Origin: Thraustochytrium sp. TN22
Lineage: Eukaryota > Sar > Bigyra > Thraustochytrida > Thraustochytriidae
DNA length: 64,000 bases
Reading direction: 5' to 3'
Assembly (NCBI GenBank): GCA_013306675.1
Contig: JABLUY010000211.1
Span: 1-64,000, forward strand
Shown here piece after piece: positions 32,601 through 61,357 of this stretch (position 1 is the first letter of the stretch; each line of letters begins with the position of its first letter). The position numbers were made by a program, and so were the translations under genes. The notes below the pieces were generated by a model that saw only the letters and a program-made list of their open reading frames with translations, did not search any database and had not been told where the DNA came from.

Positions 32601-35600
32601 CGCAGCCTGGAGCTGCTGCTCGAGCTGCGCGGCCTTCTGCACGGCGGCCTGGTCAACGACCGGGGCGGCGGGCGCAGCCGGCGCGTTGGAGAGCATACGG
32701 CCGTCGTTCATGGCAGCCTCACGGGCCTTGATGGTCTTGTCCGAGACGTAGGTGGCGGCCGAGAGGCGGAGCGTGGTCTTCTTGCGCTTGATGGGCGCCA
32801 GACGGGTGGCATCCGGCGCGTCCCACTTGTCGAAGCCCTCCAGGCGCACGCCGGCGACGACGAGCTGGACGGCGGCGTCGCGCAGCTGAATGTCGGCATC
32901 CTTGGCCGAGGCCGGGTTGACAGAGACGGTGAGGACCTCCGGGTCGTCCTTGAGCGTCTCCGAGACGAGCTTGGAGAGCACCTGCTTGGGGCCGAACTCG
33001 ACAAAGACGCGCGCGCCGGCGGCGTGCATGTTGCGCACCTCGTCGAGGAACTTGACGCCAGAGGTCATGTGCTGCGAGAGGCCCTCGCGTGCGTTGCTCG
33101 GGTACGACTGGCCGGAGACGTTGCTGAAGAGCTTGGTGGCCTGGCCGGGCGCGCGCAGGTTGACGCGCGCAAGCACGTCCGAGAAGGCCGAAGCAGCGTT
33201 CTGCATCTGCGGCGAGTGGAAGGCGCTCTCGCAGGCCAGCGGCACGACGCGGAAGCCCTCCTGAGCAAGGCGGTCCGACTCACGCTTGACGGCCTCCACC
33301 GAGCCGGTGATGACAGTCTGCGAAGGCGAGTTGGCGTTGCCGAGCCAAACGTCCGGGGTCTTGATCTCGATCTTCTCCGCGTTGGGGCCGATGACGGCGG
33401 CCATGCAGCCCTTGGGGGTGGGCTGGGCGTCCTTGCCGCTCATGATGCGGGCGCGGCGGCAGACAAGCTCGTAGAGGTCGTCGCGATCGATGCAGCCAGC
33501 GGCGTAGAGCGCGGCGAACTCGCCGAGCGAGTGGCCGGCGGCGAAGTCGGGCGTGAAGCCGGCGTCCTTGAAGATCTCAAAGGCACCGAGCGCGCAGGCC
33601 AGGGTGCTGGGCTGCGAGTAGGCGGTGAGCGAGATCTTCTTGTGGTCCTGCTCGGGCTCCTTGTCGTAGGGCTTGCGCGGGTAGAGCACCTGCGAGATGC
33701 GCTCCACCGAGGCGTCGCCGGCGTTGACCTTGGCCTGGGCGCGGTCCATGTCCGAGATGCTGGCGCGGAACTGCGGCCAGTTCATGGCAACCTCGTTGAA
33801 CATGTGCGTGTACTGGGCGCCCTGGCCGGAGAAGAGCGCGGCAACGCGGCCCTGCGTGGCAATGCCGCGGGCGCGGTAGCTGGCGCCCTCGCGCGGCAGG
33901 CGCCAGGCGTCCTTGCCCGAGGACTTCTTGAACTGGTCCACGATGGCGCGCAGCGTGGCGGTGGCGTCCGTGGCCTCCTTGACGAGGAAGCCGACGCGCG
34001 CGTGCGAGGCATCGAGCGAGCCAGGGAACTTAAACTCCTCGCAGAACTTGGTGTTCTTGATGTAGGCCACGTTCTTGACGGACTTGTCCTCCTCGAGCGC
34101 CTTCTCGAACTCGGCGAGCTGCTTCTCGCAGAGCGCCTGGAGGGCGGCCGGCGAGGGCGCCACGAGGAGCACGGGCTGCGGGCACTTGTTCAGGCGGTAC
34201 GCCTTCTGGTGCTCCGGCTCGGCCTCCTCGAGGACGGCGTGGTAGTTGGCGCCGCCAAAGCCGAAGCTCGAGATACCGGCGCGGCGCGGCACGCCCGGGG
34301 GCGGGAACCACGGCCGGTTCATCGTGTTGATGTACAGCGAGCTCTTGCGAATGTCCGAGCCGTCGTACAGCGCAGGAGGGTTGTCGACGTTGATGGTCGC
34401 CGGCAGCGTCTTGTGCTTGAGCGCCATGATGACCTTGATCATGCCGGCCAGGCCCGCCACGGCCTTGAGGTGGCCAATGTTGGACTTGATGCTGCCCACG
34501 GCCACCTGCTCCGTCTTGTCCTTGTACGCCTCGTTGAAGAGGTTGCTGAGCGCCGTGAGCTCAATGCGGTCGCCCACGGGCGTGCCCGTGCCGTGGCCCT
34601 CCACGAGCGTGACGGTGGCCGGGTCGACGTTGGCGCGCGCGTAGGAGCGGCGGAGCGCCTCCTCCTGGCCCGAGATGGTCGGCGTGTAAATGCCGGCCGC
34701 CTTGCCGTCGCTCGAGGACGCGCAGCCGCGCAGCACGGCGTGGATCTCATCGCCGTCGCGGACCGCGTCCGCGTAGCGCTTGAGCACGAGCATGGCCGAG
34801 CCCTCGCCGATGAGCATGCCCTTGGTCTTCTCGTCGTAGGCACGCACGCTCGGGTCCGTCGAGAACACGGGCGTCTTGCTGAAGGCCATGTACATGCCAA
34901 TCGAGTTGTCCGTGCACGTGGCGCCCGTGACCATCATGTCGCAGTCGCCGTACAGCAGCTCGTCCACGGCCACCTTGAGCGCGATGAGCGAACTGGCGCA
35001 CGCAGCGTCCACGACGCAGTTCATGCCGTCCATGTTGTAGGTGTTGCAGCAGCGGCCGGCCGTGACGTTGCCAAGAAAGCCCGGGAACGAGTCGAGGCGC
35101 CACTCCGGGAAGTTCGCCTTGTACTTCTCCACGGCCACCTTGATGTCCTCCTCCGGCATGCCCATCTTGCGCAGCACCTTGTCCACGACCACGTAGTTCA
35201 GGCGCGAGTAGAACTCATGGCTGGCCTTCTGGCCGCCACCGATGCCGAGCACACAGCCGATGTTCTTCTTGTCCTTGCTCAGCGCGTCCACACCGGCGTC
35301 CTGCAGCGCCTCCTTCACCTTGAGCAGCGAGATGGTCTGGTTCGCGTCCGAGTCCTCCATCTGGAACATGTTCAGGCCGAACTCGCGCGCGTCAAAGTCA
35401 AAGTCCGGGATGAAGCCGCCGCGCTTGCAGTAGATCTTGTCCTTGGTGGTCTTCTCGCTGTCGAAGTACGCCGTCACGTCCACGCGGTCCGCCGGCAGAT
35501 CCGCCAGGCAGTCAATGCCATCGCGGATCGCCTCCCACGACTCGCGCACCGTCGTGCCGCACGGCAGGATCGCCGACATGCCCACGATGGCGATGCGCGT

Positions 35601-35636
35601 GTCCATCTCGCCCTCGTTCTCGCGCCGCGCCGCCAT
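26652..35636 (-). CDS. orfA: PUFA synthase subunit A (KS-MAT-10xACP-KR-DH-like)
   Basis: This 2,994-residue subunit of the PUFA (DHA) synthase matches Schizochytrium OrfA closely. The start at 35636 (MAARRENEGEMDTRIAIVGM) corresponds to that protein's N-terminus; the frame is open 40 codons further but there encodes Ser/Arg/Ala repeats. Domains: ketosynthase about 11-470 with C213 (VDAACASS), H348 (EGHGTGT) and H389 (NIGHL); malonyl-CoA:ACP acyltransferase about 598-905 with S703 (GHSLGEF); an Ala/Gln/Glu-rich helical linker; ten ACPs, each with the phosphopantetheine serine in LGIDSIKR; then a ketoreductase (LLVSGGARGITPL) and a C-terminal hot-dog dehydratase-like region (NPFLKDHVIQGRCVLPM). 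It extends, reduces and dehydrates the acyl chain in the cytosol with subunits B and C. It is divergent from orfB across 2.05 kb. It needs a phosphopantetheinyl transferase not found here. Confidence 0.98.
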   Translation of the reverse strand: MAARRENEGEMDTRIAIVGMSAILPCGTTVRESWEAIRDGIDCLADLPADRVDVTAYFDSEKTTKDKIYCKRGGFIPDFDFDAREFGLNMFQMEDSDANQTISLLKVKEALQDAGVDALSKDKKNIGCVLGIGGGQKASHEFYSRLNYVVVDKVLRKMGMPEEDIKVAVEKYKANFPEWRLDSFPGFLGNVTAGRCCNTYNMDGMNCVVDAACASSLIALKVAVDELLYGDCDMMVTGATCTDNSIGMYMAFSKTPVFSTDPSVRAYDEKTKGMLIGEGSAMLVLKRYADAVRDGDEIHAVLRGCASSSDGKAAGIYTPTISGQEEALRRSYARANVDPATVTLVEGHGTGTPVGDRIELTALSNLFNEAYKDKTEQVAVGSIKSNIGHLKAVAGLAGMIKVIMALKHKTLPATINVDNPPALYDGSDIRKSSLYINTMNRPWFPPPGVPRRAGISSFGFGGANYHAVLEEAEPEHQKAYRLNKCPQPVLLVAPSPAALQALCEKQLAEFEKALEEDKSVKNVAYIKNTKFCEEFKFPGSLDASHARVGFLVKEATDATATLRAIVDQFKKSSGKDAWRLPREGASYRARGIATQGRVAALFSGQGAQYTHMFNEVAMNWPQFRASISDMDRAQAKVNAGDASVERISQVLYPRKPYDKEPEQDHKKISLTAYSQPSTLACALGAFEIFKDAGFTPDFAAGHSLGEFAALYAAGCIDRDDLYELVCRRARIMSGKDAQPTPKGCMAAVIGPNAEKIEIKTPDVWLGNANSPSQTVITGSVEAVKRESDRLAQEGFRVVPLACESAFHSPQMQNAASAFSDVLARVNLRAPGQATKLFSNVSGQSYPSNAREGLSQHMTSGVKFLDEVRNMHAAGARVFVEFGPKQVLSKLVSETLKDDPEVLTVSVNPASAKDADIQLRDAAVQLVVAGVRLEGFDKWDAPDATRLAPIKRKKTTLRLSAATYVSDKTIKAREAAMNDGRMLSNAPAAPAAPVVDQAAVQKAAQLEQQLQAAQQQLQAAQRQAEEAQRKAKEAEQAAAQHAQPKVDLAVVEKHRAILKSMLAELDGYGSVDAAVAAAPAAPAPAPVKAAAPAPAAAAAPAASSELLAKAETVVMEVLAAKTGYETDMIEADMELETELGIDSIKRVEILSEVQAKLNVEAKDVDALSRTRTVGEVVNAMKAEISGGAAPAPAAAPAPAAAAPAAAAAPAASSELLAKAETVVMEVLAAKTGYETDMIEADMELETELGIDSIKRVEILSEVQAKLNVEAKDVDALSRTRTVGEVVNAMKAEISGGAAPAPAAAPAPAAAAPAAAAAPAASSELLAKAETVVMEVLAAKTGYETDMIEADMELETELGIDSIKRVEILSEVQAKLNVEAKDVDALSRTRTVGEVVNAMKAEISGGAAPAPAAAPAPAAAAPAAAAAPAASSELLAKAETVVMEVLAAKTGYETDMIEADMELETELGIDSIKRVEILSEVQAKLNVEAKDVDALSRTRTVGEVVNAMKAEISGGAAPAPAAAPAPAAAAPAAAAAPAASSELLAKAETVVMEVLAAKTGYETDMIEADMELETELGIDSIKRVEILSEVQAKLNVEAKDVDALSRTRTVGEVVNAMKAEISGGAAPAPAAAPAPAAAAPAAAAAPAASSELLAKAETVVMEVLAAKTGYETDMIEADMELETELGIDSIKRVEILSEVQAKLNVEAKDVDALSRTRTVGEVVNAMKAEISGGAAPAPAAAPAPAAAAPAAAAAPAASSELLAKAETVVMEVLAAKTGYETDMIEADMELETELGIDSIKRVEILSEVQAKLNVEAKDVDALSRTRTVGEVVNAMKAEISGGAAPAPAAAPAPAAAAPAAAAAPAASSELLAKAETVVMEVLAAKTGYETDMIEADMELETELGIDSIKRVEILSEVQAKLNVEAKDVDALSRTRTVGEVVNAMKAEISGGAAPAPAAAPAPAAAAPAAAAAPAASSELLAKAETVVMEVLAAKTGYETDMIEADMELETELGIDSIKRVEILSEVQAKLNVEAKDVDALSRTRTVGEVVNAMKAEISGGAAPAPAAAPAPAAAAPAAAAAPAASSELLAKAETVVMEVLAAKTGYETDMIEADMELETELGIDSIKRVEILSEVQAKLNVEAKDVDALSRTRTVGEVVDAMKAEISGGAAAAPAAAAAAAPAAAAAVKFDTVHGEDCADLSISYAKVVDVRRPDELVVERPENRPILVVDDGTELTLALARALGACAVVLTFDGLQLAQRAGAAAIRHVLAKDLTEASAERAIKEAEQRFGTLGGFISQQAEKFAPADILGFTLMCAKHAKASLCTAVPGGRASFIGVARLDGRLGSEARGGANALKRAQRGAIFGLCKTVDLEWSDVFSRGVDIAPEVDAEEAAVAVMREMTCADSRIREVGIGAGLKRCTTRASDLLPGSPLKQVARDDVLLVSGGARGITPLCIREIAKQVGGGSYILLGRSKVSDSEPAWCAGVSDADLQKTATAELKRAFAAGQGPKPTPMLVKKTVGSIEGAREVRASIKAIEAHGGRALYASCDVNSADDVIKAVREAEAKLGARVTGVVHASGVLRDRLIEQKKPDEFDAVFGTKVAGLENLFAAVDMDKLRHLVLFSSLAGFHGNVGQSDYAMANEALNKMGLELAGRVSVKTICFGPWDGGMVTPQLKKQFQSMGVQIIPREGGADTVARIVLGSSPAQVLVGNWGIPAAKVGPETKTVHRKITAQANPFLKDHVIQGRCVLPMTLAVGALADACLGLFPGYSLWAIDDAQLFKGVTVDGDVNCEITMTPTEGASGRVMVQATLKTFSSGKLVPAYRAVVVLSSQGPPPAATTQPPSLAADPAAAGSVYDGKTLFHGPAFRGIDEVLSCSKTQLVAQCSRVPRTEAERGEFATDLSVHDPFVNDLAFQAMLVWVRRTLGQAALPNSIQRIVQHRPVPADKPFYITLKSNQAGHSQHKHALQFHSEQGDLYLDVQASVIATDSLAF
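29141..32337 (-). repeat. Ten tandem ACP-coding units, 327-bp period
   Basis: Each 327-bp (109-codon) unit codes for one acyl carrier domain plus an Ala/Pro linker (GGAAPAPAAAPAPAAAAPAA). The LGIDSIKR serine motif occurs ten times. Roughly five consecutive units (about 30048-31682) appear identical base for base, while the units at both ends carry scattered silent changes. This is the pattern of unequal exchange or gene conversion working from the middle. Confidence 0.95.
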
Positions 35637-36043
35637 TTTTCCCTCTACGCTGCGCTCGCTGCGTTCGCTGCGCTCGCTCGCTCGCTGGCTCGCCCGCCCG
35701 CCCGCTCGCTCGCTCGCTCGCTCGCTCGCTGCTGCGAGAGAGTCGAGCCGAGGCACGAAGACGAGAGCGGTTGCTCTCCAAAAACCTCAAAAGGGTTTGC
35801 TGCCGCCGCCGCGCTGCCCGCGGTCCACGCCGCCAGAGACCGCCCGGAGCGAGCTCGCTACGGCCTCCCGTCTCGCGCTCGCGACGCCGCCTCCGTCGCT
35901 CGCAAACGTCGCAGGCGCGCCGCGCGCGGGTGCCCCGCCCACTGGCGCCGCGCCCTGCGACGCCGCGCGCCGGTCCCGCGGGGCCCCCCGCAGCGCCCGC
36001 AGCCCGCGCCCGCCGACGACGCAGGCGCCCTGCGCCGCAGCGC

Positions 36044-37686: not shown

Positions 37687-40600
37687 ATGGCGGCGCGCAA
37701 GAATGTGAGCGCGGCGCACGAGATGCACGAGGAGAAGCGCATCGCGGTGGTGGGCATGGAGGTGATGTACTCCGGCAGCAAGGACAAGGAGGAGTTCTGG
37801 CAGGCGCTCATGGAGGGCCGCACCGCGGACAAGAAGATCAGCGCGACGCGGCTCGGGTCCGACAAGCGCGACGAGCACTTCAAGGCGGAGCGCAGCAAGT
37901 ACGCGGACACCTTCTGCAACGAGAACTACGGCACGCTGGGCGACGACAGCGGCGTGGACAACGAGCACGAGCTGCTGCTCAAGCTCGCGCAGGCCGCGCT
38001 CAAGGAGACCACGGTCAAGGACTCGACGCGCTGCGGCATTGTGAGCGGCGCCCTGAGCTTCCCCATGGACAACCTCCAGGGCGAGCTGCTCAACCTGTAC
38101 CAGAACCACATGGAGAAGAAGCTGGGCGCCCGCGTCTTCAAGGACGCCTCGCAGTGGTCCGACCGCGAGCAGTCGCAGGAGCCCGAGGCCGGCGACCGCC
38201 GCGTCTTCATGGACCCGGCCAGCTTCGTGGCCGAGGAGCTCAACCTGGGCCCGCTGCACTACAGCGTGGACGCCGCCTGCGCCACGGCCCTCTACGTGCT
38301 GCGCCTGGCGCAGGACCACCTCGTCTCGGGCGCGGCGGACGTCATGCTGGCAGGCGCCACCTGCTTCCCGGACCCATTCTTCATCCTCTCTGGCTTCAGC
38401 ACCTTCCAGGCCATGCCGCTGGCCGGCAAGGGCCTCTCCTTCCCGCTGCACTCGGAGAGCCAGGGTCTAACGCCCGGTGAGGGCGGTGCCGTCATGGTGC
38501 TCAAGCGCCTCGAGGACGCCGTGCGCGACGGCGACCACATCTACGGCACGCTGCTGGGCGCCGGCGTGAGCAACGCCGGCTGCGGCCTGCCGCTCAAGCC
38601 GCACATGCCGAGCGAGCGCAGCTGCCTCATTGACACCTACAAGCGAGTCAACGTGCACCCGCACAAGATCCAGTACGTGGAGTGCCATGCCACTGGCACG
38701 CCGCAGGGCGACCGCTGCGAGATCGACGCCGTCAAGGCCTGCTTCGAGGGCAAGGTGCCGCGCTTCGGCTCCTCCAAGGGCAACTTCGGCCACACGCTCG
38801 TGGCCGCCGGCTTCGCCGGCATGTGCAAGGTGCTCCTCGCCATGCACCACGGCGTCATCCCGCCCACCCCGGGCGTCGATGCCTCGTCGCAGATGGACGA
38901 CCTCGTCGTGCACGAGGCCATCCCGTGGCCCGACACCAACGGCGAGCCCAAGCGCGCCGGCCTCTCCGCCTTTGGCTTCGGCGGCACCAACGCGCACGCT
39001 GTCTTCGAGGAGCACAACCCGGCGCTCTCCGCCTGCTCCGGCCACGACTCGGTCACCGCGCTGTCCTCGCGCTGCGGCGGCGAGAACAACATGCGCATTG
39101 CCATTACCGGCATGGACGCCACCTTTGGCACGCTCAAGGGGCTGGACGCCTTCGAGCGCGCCATCTACAACGGCGCCCACGCCGCGCGGCCCATGCCGCC
39201 CAAGCGCTGGCGCTTCCTCGGCGAGGACCCGGCCTTCATGGAGGTCTGCGGCATCAAGTCCGCGCCGCACGGCTGCTACATCGAGGACGTCGAGGTCGAC
39301 TTCTCGCGCCTGCGCACGCCCATGACCCCGGAGGACATGCTGCGCGCGCAGCAGCTCCTCGCCGTCTCCACCATTGACCGCGCCATTCTCGACTCTGGCA
39401 TGGACAAGGGCGGCAATGTCGCGGTCTTCGTGGGCCTCGGCACCGACCTCGAGCTCTACCGCCACCGCGCGCGCGTCGCGCTCAAGGAGCGTGTGCGCCC
39501 CGAGGCTCGCGCTCACCTCAACGCCATGATGGAGTACATCAACGAGTGCGGCACCTCCACCTCGTACACTTCCTACATCGGCAACCTCGTCGCCACGCGC
39601 GTCTCCTCGCAGTGGGGCTTCACCGGCCCGTCCTTCACCATCACCGAGGGCAACAACTCCGTCTACCGCTGCGCCGAGCTCGGCAAGTACCTCCTCGAGA
39701 CCGGCGAGGTGGATGGCGTCGTCATCGCCGGCGTTGACCTCTGCGCCAGCGCCGAGAACATCTACATCAAGTCGCGCCGCTTCAACGTCTCGCAGGGCGA
39801 GGCGCCGCGCGCCGCCTTTGACGCCGACGCCGACGGCTACTTCGTTGGCGAGGGCTGCGGCGCGCTCGTGCTCAAGCGCGAGACCAGCTGCACCCCCCAG
39901 GACCGCGTCTATGCCTGCATCGACGCCATCGTCCCGGGCAACATCCCGGGCGCCTGCCTGCGCGAGGCGCTCGACCAGGCTCGTGTCAAGCCTGAGGATG
40001 TCGACCTGCTCGAGGTCACCGCCGACTCGGCGCGCCACCTCAAGGACCCGTCCGTCCTCCCGCGCGAGCTCACCGCCGAGGCCGAACTCGAGGGTATCCA
40101 GGATGCCCTCGCCTCCGCCGACCCGGCCGCGCCCCCGCAGCAGCACAGTCTCGCCGTCAGCAGCGTCAAGGCCGTCGTGGGCGACACCGGCTACGCCTCG
40201 GGCGCCGCCAGCCTCATCAAGGCCGCGCTCTGCATCTACAACCGCTACCTGCCCAGCAACGGCGACAGCTTCGACCGCCCGGCCGACGAGATGCCGTGGG
40301 GTGACAAGCTCTACGCCTGCCAGCACTCGCGCGCCTGGGTCAAGAACGAGGGCGACCGCCGCCGCGCCGCCGTCTCGGGCGTCTCTGAGACGCGCTCCTG
40401 CTATTCGGTCCTGCTCTCCGACGTCGAGGGCAGCTACGAGCGCGAGAACCGCGTCTCGCTCGACGAGGACCAGCCCAAGCTCCTCGTTGTGCGCGCCGAC
40501 TCGCACGAGGCCCTCCTGCAGCGCCTTGACAAGATCCGCGCCGGCTTCCTCCAGCCCACTGGCGCTGCCACCCAGGCCGCCGACCTGCGCGAGCAGGCCC

Positions 40601-43600
40601 GCCGCCAGCTCCTCGAGCTCCTCGCCGAGACCGTCGAGCAGGAGGCCCTGCCTGCCGGCCAGCTCCCGCCCTTTGCGCTCTGCATCGTCGCCACCAATGC
40701 CACTCTGCAGCGCGAGGTTGAGCTCGCCGCCAAGGGTATCCCGCGCTGCATCAAGGTGCGCCGCGACTGGACCTCACCGGCCGGCAGCCGCTACGCGCCC
40801 GAGCCGCTCAGCAGCGACCGCATCGCCTTCATGTACGGCGAGGCGCGCAGCCCGTACTACGGCATCGGCCTCGACCTGCACCGCATCTGGCCCGACCTGC
40901 ACGACATCATCAACAAGGAGACCGACCGCCTCTGGGCCGAGGGCGACCGCTGGGCGCTTCCGCGCGCCTCCTCCAAGGCCGAGCTCGCGCGCCAGGTGGA
41001 CGCCTTCGACAAGAACACCGTCGAGATGTTCCGCCTCGGTGTGTTGCGCTCCATGGAGTTCACGCACCTTGCGCGTGAGAAGCTCGGCATCAAGCCCAAG
41101 GCCGCCTTCGGCCTCAGCCTTGGTGAGATCTCCATGCTCTACTCCTTCTCTGCCAAGAACGGCCTGGTCTCGCGTCAGACCACCGACGCGCTCCGCGATA
41201 GCCCGGTCTGGACCAAGGCGCTCTCCGGCGAGTACCAGGCGCTGCGCAAGGCCTGGAACATCCCGGCCGACGCCCCCGTCGAGTCCTTCTGGCAGGGCTA
41301 CCTCGTGCGCGGCACGCGCCAGGCCATCGAGGACGCCATTGGTGCCACCAACCAGTTCGTCCACCTCATCATCGTCAACGACGCCAACTCCGGCATCATT
41401 GCTGGCAAGCCTGATGCCTGCAAGGAGGTCATCGCGCGCCTCGGCGGCAACTTCCCGGCCCTCCCCGTCACCCCGGGCATGATCGGCCACTGCCCCGAGG
41501 TCAAGCCCTACGCCGAGCAGATTGGCAGCATCTTCCGCAGCCTCGAGGTCCCGCGCGTTCCGGGCGTCGAGCTCTTCACCTCTGTCACCAAGCAGCGGCT
41601 CGTGCCGGCCGGCTCGGCGGCTTCCAAGGACGAGTACGGCCCTTCCATCGAGGAGTACGCCGCCCGCCTCTACGGCGAGCAGGCCGACTTCCCGGGCACC
41701 CTCAGCGCTGTCAACAACGCCAACTACGACGTCTTCGTCGAGGTCGGCCCCAACAACCACCGCAGCACCGCCGTGCGCACCACGCTCGGCCCGCAGAAGC
41801 CCCACGTCGCGGCCTCCATCGACCGCGAGAACGAGGGCACCTGGGTCTCGCTGCTCAAGCTTGTCGCCACGCTCCAGGCACACCGCATCCCCGGCGCGCA
41901 CCTCGCCGAGCTCTACCACCCCAAGCTGCTCGAGGAGGCCCGCGAGTGCCTGCGCGCAGCGCGCGCCGGCGAGAAGCCCTCGCGCAACAAGTTCCTGCGC
42001 AAGATCGGCGTCAACGGCCGGTGGAACGCCAAGTTGCCCATGGACAAGATTAACGCGCTCCCGGCTGCCGACCCGTCCATCGAGGCCGCTATCGCCAACC
42101 GCCGCATGAAGCAGATCAAGCCCAAGTTCTTCCCGCGCCTCAGCATCCTCGACCAGGACCAGCGCGTCGCCCCCGTCATCCAGGACCCGGCCAACGCGAC
42201 GCCCCAGCTCGCCGGCTCGGCTTCCTTGGCGCCCAAGGTCGGCGCCGCTCCGGCGCAGCAGCCGGTTGCGGCGGCGGCGGCGGTGGAGGCCAAGGCCACC
42301 TCGGCTGAGGCCCTGCGCGCAGACCTCCTCGACATTGAGCGCATGCTCTACCTGGGCGCCGACGCCAGCGGCCGCCTCGCCACCGTAGCGCCGGCCGACG
42401 CCGGCGTCATTGTGCCGCCGTGCGCAGTCAGCGACCTCGGTAGCCGTGCATTCATGAAGACCTACGGCGTGCAGGCGCCGCTGTATACGGGCGCCATGGC
42501 CAAGGGCATCGCGTCGGCTGACCTGGTCATTGCCGCCGGCAAGCGTGGCATCCTCGGCTCTTTCGGCGCCGGTGGCCTGCCCATCTCCACCGTGCGCGCG
42601 GCGCTCGAGAAGATCCAGACGGCGCTGCCCAGCGGCCCGTACGCGGTCAACCTCATCCATTCGCCCTTCGACAGCAACCTCGAGAAGGGCAATGTCGACC
42701 TCTTCCTCGAGAAGGGCGTCACGGTGGTGGAGGCGTCTGCCTTCATGACGCTCACGCCGCAGCTCGTCCGCTTCCGTGCCGCCGGCCTCTCGCGCAACGC
42801 GGACGGCTCCACGCGCATTGGCAACCGCGTCATCGGCAAGGTCTCGCGCACCGAGCTTGCTGAGATGTTCATGCGCCCGGCGCCCGAGCACCACCTCGAG
42901 CGCCTGCTGCAGTCCGGCGAGATCACCCAGGAGCAGGCCGCGCTCGCGCGCACCGTGCCGGTCGCCGACGATATCGCCGTCGAGGCTGATTCGGGCGGCC
43001 ACACCGACAACCGCCCCATCCACGTCATCCTTCCGCTCATCGTCAGCCTGCGCGACCGCCTGCACAAGGAGCTCGGCTACCCGGCGCACCTGCGCGTGCG
43101 CGTCGGCGCCGGCGGCGGCATTGGCTGCCCGCAGGCCGCCCTTGGCGCCTTCAACATGGGCGCCGCCTTTATCGTCACGGGCACGGTGAACCAGCTCGCC
43201 AAGCAGGCCGGCACGTGCGACAACGTGCGCGCGCAGCTCGCCAAGGCGACCTACTCGGACGTCACCATGGCCCCGGCCGCCGACATGTTTGAGGAGGGCG
43301 TCAAGCTCCAGGTGCTCAAGAAGGGCACCATGTTCCCGTCGCGCGCCAACAAGCTCTTTGATACCTTCCGCAAGTACGACTCCTTCGAATCCATGCCGCC
43401 GGCCGAGTTCGAGCGCCTGCAGAAGCGCGTACTTGGCTGCTCCATCGACGAGATTTGGGCCGAGACCAAGAACTTTTACATCAACCGCCTCCACAACCCG
43501 GAGAAGATCGCGCGCGCCGAGCTTGATCCCAAGCTCAAGATGTCGCTCTGCTTCCGCTGGTACCTCAGCCTCGCCAGCCGCTGGGCCAACACCGGCGCCT

Positions 43601-43854
43601 CTGACCGCGTCATGGACTACCAGGTCTGGTGCGGCCCGGCCATTGGCTCCTTCAACGAGTTCATCAAGGGTACCTACCTGGACCCGGCCGTCGCCGGCGA
43701 GTACCCGGATGTTGTGCAGATCAACCTGCAGATCCTTCGCGGCGCCGCCTTTTTGCGCCGCCTCGAGGCCGTGCGCAACGCTCGCCTCCCGGATGCGGCC
43801 ACTGACTTCCTCCGCCAGTTCGATGACACCTACGTGCCGGAGAAGGCCCTCTGA
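37687..43854 (+). CDS. orfB: PUFA synthase subunit B (KS-CLF-AT-ER)
   Basis: The 2,055-residue protein is colinear with Schizochytrium OrfB from MAARKNVSAAHEMHEEKRIA to DDTYVPEKAL. Domains: ketosynthase about 15-455 with C198 (VDAACATA) and the CHATGTPQGD and GNFGHT His motifs; chain-length factor from about 469 (MRIAITGMDATFG), a KS fold lacking the active-site Cys; acyltransferase from about 1045 with the nucleophile in GLSLGE near 1143; an Ala-rich linker near 1515-1545; and an enoyl reductase of the FMN (2-nitropropane dioxygenase-like) type from about 1575 (SRAFMKTYGVQAPLYTGAMA, GAGGGIGCPQAAL). It sets chain length, moves acyl groups and reduces the enoyl double bond in the DHA cycle. 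The ATG at 37687 has a good context (gagATGG). Its last codons and 3' flank are tandemly duplicated downstream. Confidence 0.98.
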   Translation: MAARKNVSAAHEMHEEKRIAVVGMEVMYSGSKDKEEFWQALMEGRTADKKISATRLGSDKRDEHFKAERSKYADTFCNENYGTLGDDSGVDNEHELLLKLAQAALKETTVKDSTRCGIVSGALSFPMDNLQGELLNLYQNHMEKKLGARVFKDASQWSDREQSQEPEAGDRRVFMDPASFVAEELNLGPLHYSVDAACATALYVLRLAQDHLVSGAADVMLAGATCFPDPFFILSGFSTFQAMPLAGKGLSFPLHSESQGLTPGEGGAVMVLKRLEDAVRDGDHIYGTLLGAGVSNAGCGLPLKPHMPSERSCLIDTYKRVNVHPHKIQYVECHATGTPQGDRCEIDAVKACFEGKVPRFGSSKGNFGHTLVAAGFAGMCKVLLAMHHGVIPPTPGVDASSQMDDLVVHEAIPWPDTNGEPKRAGLSAFGFGGTNAHAVFEEHNPALSACSGHDSVTALSSRCGGENNMRIAITGMDATFGTLKGLDAFERAIYNGAHAARPMPPKRWRFLGEDPAFMEVCGIKSAPHGCYIEDVEVDFSRLRTPMTPEDMLRAQQLLAVSTIDRAILDSGMDKGGNVAVFVGLGTDLELYRHRARVALKERVRPEARAHLNAMMEYINECGTSTSYTSYIGNLVATRVSSQWGFTGPSFTITEGNNSVYRCAELGKYLLETGEVDGVVIAGVDLCASAENIYIKSRRFNVSQGEAPRAAFDADADGYFVGEGCGALVLKRETSCTPQDRVYACIDAIVPGNIPGACLREALDQARVKPEDVDLLEVTADSARHLKDPSVLPRELTAEAELEGIQDALASADPAAPPQQHSLAVSSVKAVVGDTGYASGAASLIKAALCIYNRYLPSNGDSFDRPADEMPWGDKLYACQHSRAWVKNEGDRRRAAVSGVSETRSCYSVLLSDVEGSYERENRVSLDEDQPKLLVVRADSHEALLQRLDKIRAGFLQPTGAATQAADLREQARRQLLELLAETVEQEALPAGQLPPFALCIVATNATLQREVELAAKGIPRCIKVRRDWTSPAGSRYAPEPLSSDRIAFMYGEARSPYYGIGLDLHRIWPDLHDIINKETDRLWAEGDRWALPRASSKAELARQVDAFDKNTVEMFRLGVLRSMEFTHLAREKLGIKPKAAFGLSLGEISMLYSFSAKNGLVSRQTTDALRDSPVWTKALSGEYQALRKAWNIPADAPVESFWQGYLVRGTRQAIEDAIGATNQFVHLIIVNDANSGIIAGKPDACKEVIARLGGNFPALPVTPGMIGHCPEVKPYAEQIGSIFRSLEVPRVPGVELFTSVTKQRLVPAGSAASKDEYGPSIEEYAARLYGEQADFPGTLSAVNNANYDVFVEVGPNNHRSTAVRTTLGPQKPHVAASIDRENEGTWVSLLKLVATLQAHRIPGAHLAELYHPKLLEEARECLRAARAGEKPSRNKFLRKIGVNGRWNAKLPMDKINALPAADPSIEAAIANRRMKQIKPKFFPRLSILDQDQRVAPVIQDPANATPQLAGSASLAPKVGAAPAQQPVAAAAAVEAKATSAEALRADLLDIERMLYLGADASGRLATVAPADAGVIVPPCAVSDLGSRAFMKTYGVQAPLYTGAMAKGIASADLVIAAGKRGILGSFGAGGLPISTVRAALEKIQTALPSGPYAVNLIHSPFDSNLEKGNVDLFLEKGVTVVEASAFMTLTPQLVRFRAAGLSRNADGSTRIGNRVIGKVSRTELAEMFMRPAPEHHLERLLQSGEITQEQAALARTVPVADDIAVEADSGGHTDNRPIHVILPLIVSLRDRLHKELGYPAHLRVRVGAGGGIGCPQAALGAFNMGAAFIVTGTVNQLAKQAGTCDNVRAQLAKATYSDVTMAPAADMFEEGVKLQVLKKGTMFPSRANKLFDTFRKYDSFESMPPAEFERLQKRVLGCSIDEIWAETKNFYINRLHNPEKIARAELDPKLKMSLCFRWYLSLASRWANTGASDRVMDYQVWCGPAIGSFNEFIKGTYLDPAVAGEYPDVVQINLQILRGAAFLRRLEAVRNARLPDAATDFLRQFDDTYVPEKAL

Positions 43855-54714: not shown

Positions 54715-55192
54715 TCACTCGGCCTCCGTCTCGTCCGATGGCCTCGGAATACGCACAATGTTCAGCTCCGTCTCCGACGGTGCGAGTTTCTTCATCGTGG
54801 CCTTGTAGTCCTCCTCCAGGTCGTATTCGCGTGTGGTGAGCGACCTGCGCTGCTTGCGCGCGTCGCCGATGTCGTTCTTGCCCTGCACCAGCTGTATCGC
54901 TCGCCGAGCGCCCATTCGCAGTCGTCAGTCGCCCAGCCCCGTTGCACCTCGCGCTCGCGCTCGCCCGCGCGCGCGTCCTCCCCCGCGCCCGCGCAGCGCT
55001 GCGGCACCAGCGTGCTGGCCCTGGCCATGGCGGCCGCCACGTTCATGCTCGGGGTCCCGGCCTCGGAGCGCGTGGCGGCGGCGCGCGGCGCGCGGCGGCG
55101 GCACGTACCGTGGCAAGCCCGAGCGAGCCGAGCACGACGAAGCCCACGAGCGGCACGCCGACGCGCAAAAAGGCGCCGCGCCTCGGCGCCAT
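54715..55192 (-). CDS. COX16: COX16, cytochrome c oxidase assembly factor, two exons
   Basis: Exon 1 is 55192-55109 and exon 2 is 54891-54715; the 217-base intron starts GTACGT and ends ACAG, with a CTGAC branch-like motif about 45 bases before the acceptor. The joined 86-residue product starts MAPRRGAFLRVGVPLVGFVV, has one membrane segment (about 10-27), and continues LVQGKNDIGDARKQRRSLTT through a charged linker to VRIPRPSDE. This order (short Arg-rich N-terminus, one TM ending GL, QG.-D-, 'L..EY', '.RIPRP') is that of COX16, an inner-mitochondrial-membrane factor for COX2/COX1 assembly. It is too short to appear as one open frame. Divergent start codons of COX16 and the next gene are 135 bases apart. 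Splicing is inferred, not observed. Confidence 0.75.
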
Positions 55193-55327: not shown

Positions 55328-57436
55328 ATGGAGGAGGTGCGGTGGCTCGCGAGGCAGCAGGCCGCGCAAGGCGCCCTGAACGAGGCGCTGGACCGGGCCC
55401 GCGAGAGGCTCGGCAAGGACTGGCAGACGGCCTTCGTGGCGCTCGTGGCCAAGGACGCGCAGACGGCGCGCTGGCCGCTGCCGGCCGCGTACAGGCGGCG
55501 CATGCTGCAGCGCGCCGTGAGCGCGGCCGAGGACGAAGATGACGGCCCGCAGGACGACCTGGCAGATTGCCTGAGCGAGGCCATTGCGGAAGACCTCGCC
55601 GCGAACAGTGGCTGCGCGGGCCCATGGTCATGGTTCGCCGTGGGCCCGCAGAACGCAGACAAGCCCGTCTGCAGGGTCCGCGTGTGCAACGGCGGCATGG
55701 ATAAGGTCGGCCATCTCGTCTGGGAAGCCGGCCTCGTGCTCGCGGAGTGGGCAGCGCGACACCCCGACCGGTTCCGGGACCGTCACGTGCTCGAGCTCGG
55801 CGCCGGCACCGGCGTCTGCGGGCTCGCCATCGAGCGCCTCGCCGCGCCCGCCTCGATCATGCTCACCGACTACGGCGGCTCCGAGCTCGAAAATCTGGCC
55901 ATCACCGTCGAGGCCAACTCCCCGCACTCCACCGCGCGCGTCGCACAGCTCGAGTGGGGCTCCGCGCGCGAGGACCTTGTCGACCTCTACCCGGCCGGGG
56001 CCGACGGCGCCCCGGCGCCCTTTGACGTCGTCGTTGCCGCTGACTGCGTGTACGACCCGGTCATCCGCGCGCCCTTCATCAACGCCATTCAGGCCGTCCT
56101 GCTCCGCAACAGGGACGCCGACATCTACGTGCTATCCACGCAGCGCACGGCGCAAACCTTCGACGACTTCATCACCGACCTCGGCCGAGACGCCACCCTG
56201 CATCTCGAGGACCTCTCTGACTCACTCCCGGTGCACCTTCGTGACGACCCCAGCGACGCCATCGCGTTTTACGGCCCCTCGGCGCTCCTGCTCTACGGCC
56301 GCGCCGGCGCCAACCTCCGGGCGATGCGACTCCTGCACATCCGCCGCGTGCCTCCAGCAGCTGTCCCCATACGCTCCGCCTCTCTCCTTGCGCCCGCTGA
56401 GTTCGCCAAAGTCTTCATGGCGAACAATCGGCCCTGCCTGCTCCGTGGCGTCGACCTCGGCCTCGCGCAGCCGCTCAGCCGCGCCTCGCTCGCCGCGGAC
56501 GACGCCCTCGCCCGCGAGCGCGTCCCAGTGGCCGCCTCCGCGTGCAGGCGCTGCAACCCAGACGCCGAGGACCGCCTGGAGATGGACCTCGGCGCTTATC
56601 TAGAGTGCTGGCGCTCGCATGAGGCCGCCTCCCCGGGCTACCTCAAGGATTGGCACTGGGCCGCGGTGCGCGAGCGCCTCGACGGCGGCGCAGCGCAGTA
56701 TGTGGTGCCCGAGCACTTTCGCGACGACTGGCTCAACGAGTTTTGCGAGTCTGGTGACCTCAACAGGTCCGACTACCGCTTCCTCTACCTTGGCCCCGCC
56801 GGCTCCTGCACCGACCTACACCACGACGTCTACCTCAGCTACAGCTGGAGCTACAACGTCGATGGGCACAAGCTCTGGATCATCTTCGCCGAGGGCCAGG
56901 CGCCCGCCGACCGCTCACAGCGCATCGTGCGCGATCACGCCCGTCTGCAGCAGTGGTTCGCCGAGACGCGCCACGACGACCATGCTCTGCGTGCCCTGGT
57001 TCGCGAGGGCCTCGGCAAGGACGCCGCGCGGGATGTCGCGGAGCCCTTCGTCCTCGTGCAGGGGCCTGGCGAGGCCATCTTCGTTCCGTCCGGCTGTTTC
57101 CATGAGGTGCACAACCTCGAAGAAACCCTCTCGCTCAACACGAATTGGCTCAACAGGTATAACCTGCTTCGCGTCAACCGGTTCCTCCTGAACGAGCTCT
57201 CCACCACGCGCGAGGCGCTCGCCGACTGCAAGGAGACCACCTCCGATGACAAGGAGTGGGACGACCTCGTGCAGCGCGTCATGCTGCTGAACACGGGCAT
57301 CAACCGCCCCAAGTGGTCCGAGCTCCTTCGTGCCCGAGCGCGGCGCTGCCCTCAAGACCGCGACCGCATCATGCAGGCTTTGGACGCCTGGCAAGATGCC
57401 CCGGACAGCGCCTGTGCACAGACCTCCGACATATGA
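55328..57436 (+). CDS. Fusion: FAM86/EEF2KMT-like methyltransferase + JMJD4-like dioxygenase
   Basis: The 702-residue protein is one open frame from the ATG at 55328 (gcATGG); the frame is open further upstream only in Arg/Pro-rich sequence. Residues 1-325 resemble FAM86/EEF2KMT, the eEF2-lysine methyltransferase: VWEAGLVLAEWAARHP, SAM motif VLELGAGTGVCGLA (154-167), TDYGG, and ADCVYDP (238-244). Residues 336-625 resemble JMJD4, the 2-oxoglutarate/Fe(II) hydroxylase of release factor eRF1: iron ligands H498 and D500 (TDLHHDVYLSYSWSYN), H592 (VPSGCFHEVHNLEETLSL), cosubstrate K515 (GHKLW). Both active sites look intact. Both human counterparts are separate proteins modifying translation factors, so one bifunctional enzyme of elongation and termination is suggested. 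Its stop is only 26 bases from the convergent importin stop. Confidence 0.85.
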   Translation: MEEVRWLARQQAAQGALNEALDRARERLGKDWQTAFVALVAKDAQTARWPLPAAYRRRMLQRAVSAAEDEDDGPQDDLADCLSEAIAEDLAANSGCAGPWSWFAVGPQNADKPVCRVRVCNGGMDKVGHLVWEAGLVLAEWAARHPDRFRDRHVLELGAGTGVCGLAIERLAAPASIMLTDYGGSELENLAITVEANSPHSTARVAQLEWGSAREDLVDLYPAGADGAPAPFDVVVAADCVYDPVIRAPFINAIQAVLLRNRDADIYVLSTQRTAQTFDDFITDLGRDATLHLEDLSDSLPVHLRDDPSDAIAFYGPSALLLYGRAGANLRAMRLLHIRRVPPAAVPIRSASLLAPAEFAKVFMANNRPCLLRGVDLGLAQPLSRASLAADDALARERVPVAASACRRCNPDAEDRLEMDLGAYLECWRSHEAASPGYLKDWHWAAVRERLDGGAAQYVVPEHFRDDWLNEFCESGDLNRSDYRFLYLGPAGSCTDLHHDVYLSYSWSYNVDGHKLWIIFAEGQAPADRSQRIVRDHARLQQWFAETRHDDHALRALVREGLGKDAARDVAEPFVLVQGPGEAIFVPSGCFHEVHNLEETLSLNTNWLNRYNLLRVNRFLLNELSTTREALADCKETTSDDKEWDDLVQRVMLLNTGINRPKWSELLRARARRCPQDRDRIMQALDAWQDAPDSACAQTSDI

Positions 57437-57462: not shown

Positions 57463-60400
57463 TCACGACCATGCCATCGCCTGTGCCAGCGCTGAGCGCT
57501 CCTCTTGGCCCAGATCCGCAGCCCCGCTCGCCAGGCGGTGCAGCGCTTCCGCGACTGCCGTCCGCATTGAGGGCCGCGCATCAGCGGCCTGGACCAGGGC
57601 GGCCATCGCCTCTTTTCGCGGCACGTGGCCAGACCTGAGGCACGCCAGGCAAAACTGGGCCACCTCGTCCGCGCCTTGAAAGCCTTTTTGTGAGACCGCC
57701 CACAGCAACGTGAGCGCGGCGTCCGCACAGGTGCTCTCGGAGAAGGACTCGGCGTTCCGCGCCACGGTGAAAAGCACCTCGCCGTCTTCGGGTGAGATAG
57801 CCTCTTCGTGATAGCGCCTCGCATGGCGCAGGCTCGCGCTGCACAGCCGCGCAAGCGCGTCGGCGTGCTTCAAAGGGGCGGGCTCCCGAAGAAAGCTCAG
57901 GTTTTCGTTGACGACCTCCACAAGGCCGGCCGCGACCTCGGGCGACCCAAAGGGCGACCGACAAGCCAGCGCCGCCTCGATAGCCATGAGCGAGACCAGG
58001 CGGTCCTCCTCCAGGCGGTGTTGCGCGCCCATCTCGCATAGCGCGTCGCTCAGCACGGCCTCGAAGGCGCGCAGGAAGCTCACCGGTCGCCGCCGCGCGG
58101 CCCCTGCCCAGAGGCGCGCCAGCTCGCACCGGTATGCCAAGCCCTGGTCGTCCCCAACGTCGTCGCCGCCACTGCCGTAGAGCCGCCGCTCGCTCTGCAA
58201 AACCGCTCTGGCCTGCAGGCTTGCGCGTAGGCGCTCCAAACCCTGCGAACACAAGATGTCCACCTCCGCGTCGCTCAGCGCGTGCGCGTCCTCCACGAAC
58301 GCCACCAGCACCTGCGCGAGCGCGAGCTGCAGGTCTAGGTCATCATCCGCGGAAGCCAGGCTCTGCAGCAAGAGCTCCAAAGTGGCCGTGCGGATGCGCT
58401 CATGCAGCGCGTCCCCTGGCGTGGCCTGGGCCGCGAGTCGCGACAGCGCCTCCGCCGCAGTCACGTAGAGGTCCGGTGCCATGTCGATCGTCAGCTGGGC
58501 CTGGGCGGTGCCCACTACCCATTCCGCCTGGCGAGCCACCACGGCAGGCGCCGCGCTCGCCAGAGCACCCACCAGGCTCCAGGCCGCCAGCGCCTCGCGG
58601 GCGTGCTCCGTCTGTGGGGCGCTCCAGTCGCTGGCGTCCTCATGCGTGCCGCGGAGGGCGTCCTCCTGCGCGGCCAGCAGCACCTCGCGCGCCAGCCCCA
58701 GGGCCGAGTCTGCGAACGGGGCCACATCCAGGCCTACGCACGGGACCACCAGCACCCACACTTGGAGCAAGCCCTCCACGCAGGCGCCCAGATCGCCTAC
58801 CGACGACTCACCCCGCACATTCTGGAGCCACCGCACCAGCGCCTCTAGCTCGCGCTGCGCCTTTGTCTTGCCCACGGCTTTGCAGAGCGCCGCCAGACAG
58901 TACGCGCAGCGCGTTCGCGCGTCCAGGTCGAGCGGCGCACTGGGATCGACGACGGATTGCGCCAGGCCTGGCGCCCAGGCCACAAAGTTCTGGGCCGCGA
59001 AGTCGCCACAGCAACCCTTGGCTTCGGCGAGAGCCGCGGTCGCATCCAGGGCGGCCCGCCAGGTTGCGTCACCGGGCCGCTCGTGCGCTACCACGAGGCG
59101 GAGTTTCTCCCAGACCTCTTTGAAGGCCGCCTCGGCGTCCTTGTGGTTTGCCGCACTGCACGTGACAGCAAACACCTCCAAAACCTCGGCAGCGCAGCGC
59201 CGCATGGGACCCTGCGCGCACGAGAGGCCAGCGGATGTGAGGCGTGCCACGGCGCGGGGCAGGTCCGGAACGCACCACAACGCTTCCTGCTGGCTAGCCA
59301 CGGTCCCAAGACACGCCAGCACATTGTACTGCACACGGGGGTCTGCGTCGCGCTGGCCGGCTGCGATGTAAAGCCACTCCAGCGTGGTTTGCAGCAGCTC
59401 CCGGAGCACCGGTGAGGCAGCGCGGGGCTCGCTCCAGGTGGCGGCGAACTGCGCTGGTTCCCGGCAGCCGGCGTCAACCAGCTGGGCGCAGGCCTCCAGC
59501 GCAGTCACGGAGGCCTGCCATGAGGCCACACGCACGCAGTCGCGCGCCAATCGCATGACGGGCGGGCCCACCTGCTCAAGGCCGAGACTCGCCGCCAAGC
59601 GGCCCAGCGCCGAGGCAGCCGCAGCCGCGCATGGCGACGAGACGCCACCATCTTGCAGCACTTCCAAGGGCGCGTCCGGGTCTAATGTGGTGAGCATGGT
59701 GCGCATCGTCGTCTCCACGAGCGCCGCAGCAGCTGCGCCGCCGCTTAAGCTGCGCATAGCGCCCGGCAACGCCTCGCAGAGCGAGGCCAGACATTCCATG
59801 GCGAGCACGCGGCTCTCCACGGCCAGCGTTTGCGCCTCCACGAGCGCCGCCAGAAGCTGCACGGCGGCATCCAGCGCCGGGGAGAGCAGATCGGCGCTCG
59901 TGAAGCAGAGCTCCGCGAGTGCGGTCAGAACGGCATCCAGGCCGGCCCCGCCCGCCTGTGCCGCCTGCTGCACGGTTTGTGTTGCGTCCAGGGCGAGCGC
60001 TTGAAAGGCCTGCCGGTCCGGACCCACCACATGGGGCCCGACGGCGGCCAGCGCCGCGAGAGCCAGCACCGGCTCCCTCTCGGGGGCGCCGACCTGAGCC
60101 CGCAAGGCGCGCTGCAGGCCGGCCGCCAGGAGCTCGAGCTCCTCGTCGCTGCTGAGCGACCCCATCACAGAGGCCGGCGCGGCCTCGGCGATCTGCAGCG
60201 CTGCCAGCAGCTCACTCGCGGAGGCGCCCGGGCGCAGCAGCGCCATGAAGGCGCCCTTGAGTGCCGGCCACTCCTCGCCGTACTCGTCGGCGAGCGCGCC
60301 GACTGCGCGGGCAAGGCGTGCGCGCAGGCGCGCGGGGGCGGCCTGCGCCGCCGCGCGCACCAGGCCCACACAGACCTCATCTTGGGCGGCCTCCTCGAGC

Positions 60401-60636
60401 TCCCAGAGCCTGGCGCTGCCCTCGTCGCCGCCACCGCCGCCGCCGCCGAGCAGCACGGGCGTCAGCAGGACGGCGCCGGCCTCGCGCGCCGCCAGCGCCT
60501 CGCTCGGCCCCGCCGCCACCCAGCGCACGAGCGCCAGCGCGTCCTCGGCCGAGCAGGCCTCCACGGCGCGCTCGGCCGCGCGCCGGCGCGCCGCGTCCCC
60601 GCTCGCCACGCCACCCACGGCCGCCGCCCAGTCCAT
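57463..60636 (-). CDS. Importin-beta family nuclear transport receptor (IPO4/IPO5-like)
   Basis: The protein has 1,057 residues from the ATG at 60636 (MDWAAAVGGVASGD); the frame is open 55 codons upstream but only in Arg-rich sequence. It is an all-helical solenoid of HEAT-like repeats throughout. The N-terminal pattern of repeat 1-3 (AERAVEACSAEDALALVRWV, then LLTPVLLGG, then LARAVGALADEYGEEWPALK) is that of large karyopherin-beta receptors. Acidic loops are few. Length fits the importin-4/5 class (about 1,080-1,120). These receptors bind RanGTP and carry ribosomal proteins and histones into the nucleus; the cargo here cannot be told. Compared with IPO5 the sequence is very Ala-rich, as expected at this GC content. 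Confidence 0.8.
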   Translation of the reverse strand: MDWAAAVGGVASGDAARRRAAERAVEACSAEDALALVRWVAAGPSEALAAREAGAVLLTPVLLGGGGGGGDEGSARLWELEEAAQDEVCVGLVRAAAQAAPARLRARLARAVGALADEYGEEWPALKGAFMALLRPGASASELLAALQIAEAAPASVMGSLSSDEELELLAAGLQRALRAQVGAPEREPVLALAALAAVGPHVVGPDRQAFQALALDATQTVQQAAQAGGAGLDAVLTALAELCFTSADLLSPALDAAVQLLAALVEAQTLAVESRVLAMECLASLCEALPGAMRSLSGGAAAAALVETTMRTMLTTLDPDAPLEVLQDGGVSSPCAAAAASALGRLAASLGLEQVGPPVMRLARDCVRVASWQASVTALEACAQLVDAGCREPAQFAATWSEPRAASPVLRELLQTTLEWLYIAAGQRDADPRVQYNVLACLGTVASQQEALWCVPDLPRAVARLTSAGLSCAQGPMRRCAAEVLEVFAVTCSAANHKDAEAAFKEVWEKLRLVVAHERPGDATWRAALDATAALAEAKGCCGDFAAQNFVAWAPGLAQSVVDPSAPLDLDARTRCAYCLAALCKAVGKTKAQRELEALVRWLQNVRGESSVGDLGACVEGLLQVWVLVVPCVGLDVAPFADSALGLAREVLLAAQEDALRGTHEDASDWSAPQTEHAREALAAWSLVGALASAAPAVVARQAEWVVGTAQAQLTIDMAPDLYVTAAEALSRLAAQATPGDALHERIRTATLELLLQSLASADDDLDLQLALAQVLVAFVEDAHALSDAEVDILCSQGLERLRASLQARAVLQSERRLYGSGGDDVGDDQGLAYRCELARLWAGAARRRPVSFLRAFEAVLSDALCEMGAQHRLEEDRLVSLMAIEAALACRSPFGSPEVAAGLVEVVNENLSFLREPAPLKHADALARLCSASLRHARRYHEEAISPEDGEVLFTVARNAESFSESTCADAALTLLWAVSQKGFQGADEVAQFCLACLRSGHVPRKEAMAALVQAADARPSMRTAVAEALHRLASGAADLGQEERSALAQAMAWS

Positions 60637-61357
60637 CTCGCCGCCGTCCTCGCCCCGCCGGCGCCGCTGCCGCCGCGCGGAAGGAGCTTTGATTGCCGTT
60701 CTGCGCTTTCTTGCAGACCTCGGTTTTTGCCCTCCAGGGTCCACGCGGCGCCCACAAGAAGCACCGCAGCGAATCGCGAGCGCCGCGCGCGACCGCGCCA
60801 TTTTCGCACGGTCTGCACTCTATGATGCGATGCGAATAAGAAGAGGTGGAACGGGAGCTTCCCTCACCTGTGTCTCACGCCAGATCTTGTGCTTTTGCTT
60901 TCGCTTTTGCTCTCGCTTTCGCGTCCTGCAAGAAGAGGTCTGTGCTGTCGCACCCACCGATGATGATGCTTTCTGCTTTCGCAAGATGCTGCTTTCGCTT
61001 TTGCACGATGAGACTCTTGCTTTCGCACGATGCACGATGAGACTCTTGCTTTCGCACGATGATGATTTCGCCTTTGCACGAGGAGGCTCTTGCTTTCGCA
61101 CCATGGTGCTTCCACTCCGCACGAAGGGGCTTCCACACAGAGATGCTTCGTTATCGAACAGAACTACATTCGCACCAAGGTACTATTGCAATTGAAGATA
61201 GTTTATGGCATGGTTCTCTCTGATGGGCTAGGGTACGGACTGTCCGGGCATGTCTGAGGAAGGACAATGCGCTTATGGGGGAGGCTATGGAAGGCCTCGT
61301 GGTTGTATGCTGGGTGTTTGTATACATGGCGGGCGCAGTGTGCCGGCGCCGGCCTGT
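60637..61357. other. Spacer with degenerate CTTTCGCAC-type repeats
   Basis: Upstream of the importin start is a basic-leader-like stretch (60640-60810). From 60885 to 61140 irregular repeats of GCTTTTGC/GCTTTCGCACGATGA recur at varying spacing, with clear copies near 61000-61110. No gene is seen; frames across it only translate the repeat. Confidence 0.7.

Follow-up and report, generated by a model that had tools for sequence, protein, structure and literature searches.

A Thraustochytrium open reading frame joining an EEF2KMT-like methyltransferase to a JMJD4-like JmjC oxygenase, a putative modification enzyme of translation factors

One uninterrupted reading frame in the genome of Thraustochytrium sp. 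TN22 joins a Methyltransf_16 domain to a JmjC domain. Judged from sequence comparisons, its product is probably one bifunctional enzyme for the translation factors eEF2 and eRF1, which would combine in a new way two known enzymes that are normally separate. The gene lies in the window, by which we mean the whole stretch of 64,000 nucleotides of contig JABLUY010000211.1 that was analysed. It comprises, together with its neighbours, the following features:

54715-55192, minus strand: COX16, divergent neighbour, with exons at 55192-55109 and 54891-54715 that were joined by eye; PF14138, 45.3 bits, cut-off 27
55328-57436, plus strand: whole fusion gene, 702 aa, read as one exon; ATG at 55328, TGA at 57434-57436
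55472-55603, plus strand: FAM86-like segment, aa 49-92, putative counterpart of the eEF2-docking part of FAM86A, from alignment and shuffles
55685-56173, plus strand: Methyltransf_16 seven-beta-strand domain, probably of EEF2KMT type, aa 120-282, with W132, VLELGAGTG and D239-x-x-Y242
56174-56380, plus strand: aa 283-351, comprising the last part of the methyltransferase fold, which by eye ends at about aa 325, and after it the linker; no stop and no GTRNG donor
56381-57340, plus strand: JMJD4-like JmjC dioxygenase region, aa 352-671 (the extent of the match to a presumed JMJD4 sequence), with H498, D500, H592 and K515
57463-60801, minus strand: importin-like protein, convergent neighbour; weak match to importin-5 (1.7e-6, 29.9 bits)

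The fusion gene and its neighbourhood

The fusion is real as sequence. As the earlier note had claimed, the frame is uninterrupted: its 702 codons contain no stop between 55328 and 57436, compared with 6 and 12 stops in the other two forward frames of the same stretch, and the coding signal stays in frame across the junction. The chance of a stop-free run of 702 codons is about 2e-5 given the position-specific base composition and about 1e-6 given the plain composition. Codon usage was scored in sliding 60-codon windows, with a measure trained on nine further open frames of this genome (4557 codons). From codon 0 through codon 690, none of the five alternative frames scores as high as the fusion frame. 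The score falls at the junction (0.08 for codons 300-360 and -0.05 for codons 330-390, followed by 0.13), where a reverse frame nearly ties with it at codons 330-390 (-0.07 vs. -0.05), a dip that is expected for a linker.

Upstream of the ATG, the fusion frame scores between -0.13 and -0.54 and all frames score 0.02 or less, which is weak evidence because the short COX16 exons are missed there too. An upstream GTG start at 54833 was rejected, since the coding signal starts at 55328 and the upstream stretch is filled by COX16 on the opposite strand. A scan of positions 56131-56440 for splice donors of the form GTRNG found none. By eye, the methyltransferase fold ends at aa 325, only about 26 codons ahead of aa 352, where the JMJD4 match sets in; by Pfam edges the gap is 75 codons, which leaves little space for an intergenic region. 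With no stop, no GTRNG donor and little intergenic room, a two-gene or intron model was provisionally rejected.

The COX16 gene starts with an ATG at 55192 and is divergent from the fusion gene, with 135 bp between the two starts. On the other side, the stop of the importin-like gene at 57463 lies 26 bp past the fusion-gene stop codon; in Pfam, this neighbour has only an Importin_rep_4 match below threshold. Elsewhere in the window, positions 26652-35756 of the minus strand encode a PfaA-type omega-3 polyunsaturated fatty acid synthase of 3034 aa (TIGR02813, 2539.7 bits together with in-frame neighbours, cut-off 1010.1). Divergent from it, positions 37687-43854 of the plus strand encode a protein of 2055 aa, in which two ketoacyl-synthase stretches are accompanied by an insert of FabD type. 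We take this pairing of a PfaA-type synthase with a second ketoacyl-synthase protein to be the OrfA/OrfB arrangement typical of thraustochytrids.

The methyltransferase half

The first half had been described in the earlier note as EEF2KMT-like, a view borne out by PDB scores, by a reciprocal search of the organism's own genome and by a tree. Pfam Methyltransf_16 matches aa 120-282 at 3e-23, above the cut-off, and both motifs pointed out earlier, VLELGAGTG and ADCVYDP, are found in the translation. The best PDB match is EEF2KMT (8fzb; 66.3 bits, aa 49-288), followed by METTL21A (34.9 bits, aa 127-293). Conversely, an EEF2KMT fragment searched against the own genome ranks the fusion protein first with 61.4 bits and the next gene at 43.8 bits; this search covered 62 loci with 1065 open frames no shorter than 120 aa, some of which are overlapping copies of one gene. 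The fusion protein and EEF2KMT are thus reciprocal best matches in this genome. The second-best gene for the EEF2KMT fragment, L014, is a Methyltransf_16 protein in a 611-codon open frame on the minus strand, the upstream part of which resembles ankyrin repeats by eye.

A 24-row tree was built from the window protein, four PDB proteins and, of the 22 Methyltransf_16 places found elsewhere in the genome, the 19 that passed the search threshold (L031, L034 and L036 did not). In this tree the methyltransferase half pairs with EEF2KMT at 95/90, the sole starred branch; the remainder is weak, with many long rows and 15 open inner branches out of 21. The best paralog in the own genome, L009 (58.7 bits), is also the nearest row by plain identity (35% over 133 columns). 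Given the weak backbone and the position of L009, we let the reciprocal scores outweigh the tree. Of the features that mark the EEF2KMT type, a Methyltransf_16 domain with intact cofactor motifs is present, and by scores and tree EEF2KMT is the closest of the Methyltransf_16 enzymes compared, although plain identity favours L009. In FAM86A, W139 and Y251 have been named as contacting the cofactor product, and hand mapping on the PDB alignment places W132 and Y242 of the fusion protein at these positions.

Human and yeast EEF2KMT carry a FAM86 domain in addition to the methyltransferase domain (excerpt of PMC10285254). The earlier note had also proposed profile searches of both halves. Methyltransf_16 answered for the first half as given above, and Pfam FAM86 had no match to aa 1-131 within a limit of E 10 (most hits with E values beyond about 0.1 are removed by the filters). 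Pairwise comparison gives a different picture: against FAM86A chain residues 64-121, aa 41-119 score higher than all but one of 2000 shuffled versions, and aa 1-119, compared with the FAM86A segment, higher than all but three of 2000. The similarity does not extend to aa 1-48, for which 772 of 2000 shuffles score as high against the tested FAM86A segment. Nine interface residues of FAM86A have been published, of which five are identical in the fusion protein (P88, D90, E94, A97, and L100), two are conservatively replaced (I78V and L96I) and two differ (Y93S and M101A). The comparison is favourable to a FAM86 docking segment that would still be partly recognisable in the fusion protein.

The JmjC half

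The second half matches Pfam JmjC at aa 485-607 (2.3e-14) and Cupin_8 (5.2e-8), both above their cut-offs and both among the profiles proposed beforehand. The residues H498, D500, K515, and H592 sit at exactly the positions named earlier, with the two histidines and the aspartate assigned to iron and the lysine to 2-oxoglutarate. JMJD6 is the best PDB match and the one strong one (60.8 bits); the PDB listing up to an E value of 1 has 23 sequences, none of them named JMJD4. For this reason the JMJD4 reference is a presumed human sequence, typed by hand and not taken from a database. It was typed after the window protein was known, and leakage from one to the other cannot be excluded. The sole outside check on it is the first iron histidine, which falls at position 189; an H189A mutant of JMJD4 is described in an excerpt of PMC3991326.

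Against this presumed reference, the JmjC half scores 135 bits and the next protein of the own genome 80 bits. In a 9-row tree the half pairs with presumed JMJD4 at 96/97, the two being 36% identical over 257 columns; support for uniting the JMJD6-type rows is only 65/91 there. In a 16-row tree it falls outside a 99/99 clade formed by PDB JMJD6 and four proteins of the own genome (L011, L012, L013, and L015); that tree supports no partner for it, JMJD4 included. Among 35 columns at which at least four of five JMJD6-type rows are alike and differ from presumed JMJD4, the window protein matches presumed JMJD4 at 14, JMJD6 at 6 and neither at 15. A JMJD6 fragment searched against the own genome finds L011 at 228.7 bits, three more JMJD6-like proteins at 122-149 bits and the fusion protein at 58.5 bits. 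The JMJD6 ortholog is therefore likely L011, encoded elsewhere in the genome, and with these scores and the position outside the JMJD6 clade, a JMJD6 identity of the half was rejected.

The JMJD4-like character that the earlier note had ascribed to the second half thus holds up against the presumed reference, by score and by the 9-row tree. Assignment to the JMJD4 type is well supported from these comparisons; since the reference is a presumed one, the name calls for repetition with database sequences. JMJD4-like and JMJD6-like sequences are separate across eukaryotes (excerpt of PMC9485057). In a scan of genome contigs, three bacterial loci from 24 stretches share 22%-27% identity over the JmjC core. 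No relatives were confirmed in viral contigs, either in a whole-protein scan (two pattern-matching stretches) or in a scan based on two aligned JmjC rows (45 stretches).

Substrate sites and other candidates in the genome

Both target sites are present in the organism's own factors. Its eEF2 (L060) contains VEGLKRLAK, identical in nine of nine residues to the peptide spanning human EEF2-Lys525 that served as an antibody peptide (excerpt of PMC10285254). Its eRF1 (L058) contains NIKS, the expected target site of JMJD4. Sites of the VEGLKRLAK type in eEF2 and the NIKS of eRF1 are to be expected in most eukaryotes, so that both are consistent with the proposed substrates without discriminating between readings. 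No better candidate for the EEF2KMT or the JMJD4 role was found in searches of the own genome (37.9 Mb). The protein search was unrestricted by family, with only the best candidates scored. The JmjC family was collected with Cupin_8 instead of JmjC (PF02373), and 26 of the 27 other Cupin_8 places were taken, with C408 left out.

Proposed function and alternative readings

In the reading that we prefer, the first half, consisting of the FAM86-like docking segment and the seven-beta-strand methyltransferase, would methylate the eEF2 lysine equivalent to human Lys525 with SAM as the methyl donor. The second half, a JMJD4-like Fe(II)/2-oxoglutarate-dependent oxygenase, would hydroxylate the NIKS lysine of eRF1 (human Lys63). 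Each catalytic unit would use its own residues on one chain. As both units would act on factors that enter the same ribosomal A site, one gene product may set two translation-fidelity marks in fixed stoichiometry, with joint production as the minimum consequence. That the gene yields a single protein, where this acts in the cell, and both activities with their substrates are inferred.

These marks bear on decoding accuracy and on termination. Methylation of eEF2-Lys525 sits near the accuracy centre of the ribosome, and yeast lacking the enzyme shows increased -1 frameshifting (excerpt of PMC10238732), while hydroxylation of eRF1-Lys63 favours termination at stop codons (excerpts of PMC3991326 and PMC4682802). 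A natural fusion of the two writers may hint that the fidelity of elongation and that of termination are set jointly, and, if both activities are true, deleting this one gene should abolish the two marks. A more far-reaching version takes the fusion as a Rosetta-stone protein: it would reveal a conserved, unrecognised link of eEF2-Lys525 methylation with eRF1-Lys63 hydroxylation, in which the FAM86-like segment docks A-site factors and the marks are set jointly. This version is doubtful. If true, the two marks would constitute one oxygen- and SAM-dependent switch of translation fidelity, and one would expect cooperation between EEF2KMT and JMJD4 in other eukaryotes as well.

The joining itself may also carry no meaning. 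The fusion could be expressed and both halves could act as proposed, with their union a neutral, lineage-specific accident among odd domain combinations; this has a little less than an even chance of being right, and it overlaps with our preferred explanation, as it denies only the meaning of the joining. Such combinations exist in the same genome, where JMJD6-like JmjC domains share one open frame with a Gly_transf_sug (DXD sugar-transferase) domain (L012:862-3084, plus strand) and with an APH-type phosphotransferase domain (L013:1298-3925, plus strand). A third JMJD6-like JmjC protein (L015:812-2560, plus strand) has an F-box-like match of 22.0 bits, under the cut-off of 24.3, and resembles the F-box JmjD6-like group described in an excerpt of PMC9485057. 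Thraustochytrids also have a functional crtIBY fusion (excerpt of PMC10016063). With ALKBH8, crtIBY and the odd JmjC partnerships of this genome, the fusion as such is not extraordinary. Against neutrality, both halves retain their catalytic residues and each is the sole candidate found, which suggests constraint on both and leaves the reason for joining unaddressed. The first half might instead be another Methyltransf_16 enzyme with a different target, for example a relative of yeast Efm2 or a lineage-specific enzyme. The missing Pfam FAM86 match, the score of L009 and the weak backbone of the tree speak for this; EEF2KMT is clearly ahead in both search directions, pairs with the half at high support, and five of the nine docking residues are identical, which makes another enzyme unlikely.

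Two further readings concern how the halves work together and whether they are joined at all. Instead of serving two factors, both might modify a single substrate one after the other, as the methyltransferase and the 2-oxoglutarate oxygenase of ALKBH8 do on one tRNA base (excerpt of PMC4682802). This is quite improbable here, as the halves group with enzymes of different known substrates and the known motif of each substrate exists in the own genome. An assembly or gene-model error, with two adjacent genes read as one, could draw on a gene model read from genomic sequence, on the dip of the coding score at codons 300-390 and on a donor scan that covered the GTRNG form only. Yet the junction has neither a stop nor a GTRNG donor, the short distance between the halves leaves little intergenic room, and the neighbours on both sides lie on the opposite strand, so that such an error is very improbable. 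The bifunctional enzyme for eEF2 and eRF1 stays our preferred reading. The earlier note knew of no description of such a protein, and likewise we found none of a methyltransferase-JmjC (EEF2KMT-JMJD4) fusion in open-licence PMC papers.

Comparison with known systems

With EEF2KMT/FAM86A (Efm3 in yeast), the fusion protein shares the Methyltransf_16 domain, the residues that contact the cofactor and the target peptide in the own eEF2, and putatively also a portion of the FAM86 docking segment; it differs in that its FAM86-like part escapes Pfam detection and a JmjC enzyme follows. With JMJD4, the C4-hydroxylase of eRF1 Lys63 (excerpt of PMC3991326), it shares the iron and 2-oxoglutarate residues and the NIKS of the own eRF1. 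JMJD4 belongs to the JmjC-domain-only subgroups (excerpt of PMC2453528), whereas here the domain is joined to a methyltransferase. Compared with presumed JMJD4, the fusion protein also has extra residues at about aa 530-580.

Like the fusion, TYW4/Ppm2 is a protein linked to translation in which a methyltransferase is combined with JmjC/cupin domains; unlike it, TYW4/Ppm2 has an LCMT-type methyltransferase and acts in wybutosine synthesis on tRNA-Phe. ALKBH8 likewise combines a 2-oxoglutarate oxygenase and a methyltransferase in one protein serving decoding, but its target is the tRNA wobble uridine and its oxygenase is AlkB-homologous (excerpt of PMC4682802). Its domain order is also reversed, with the oxygenase first (excerpt of PMC2453528).
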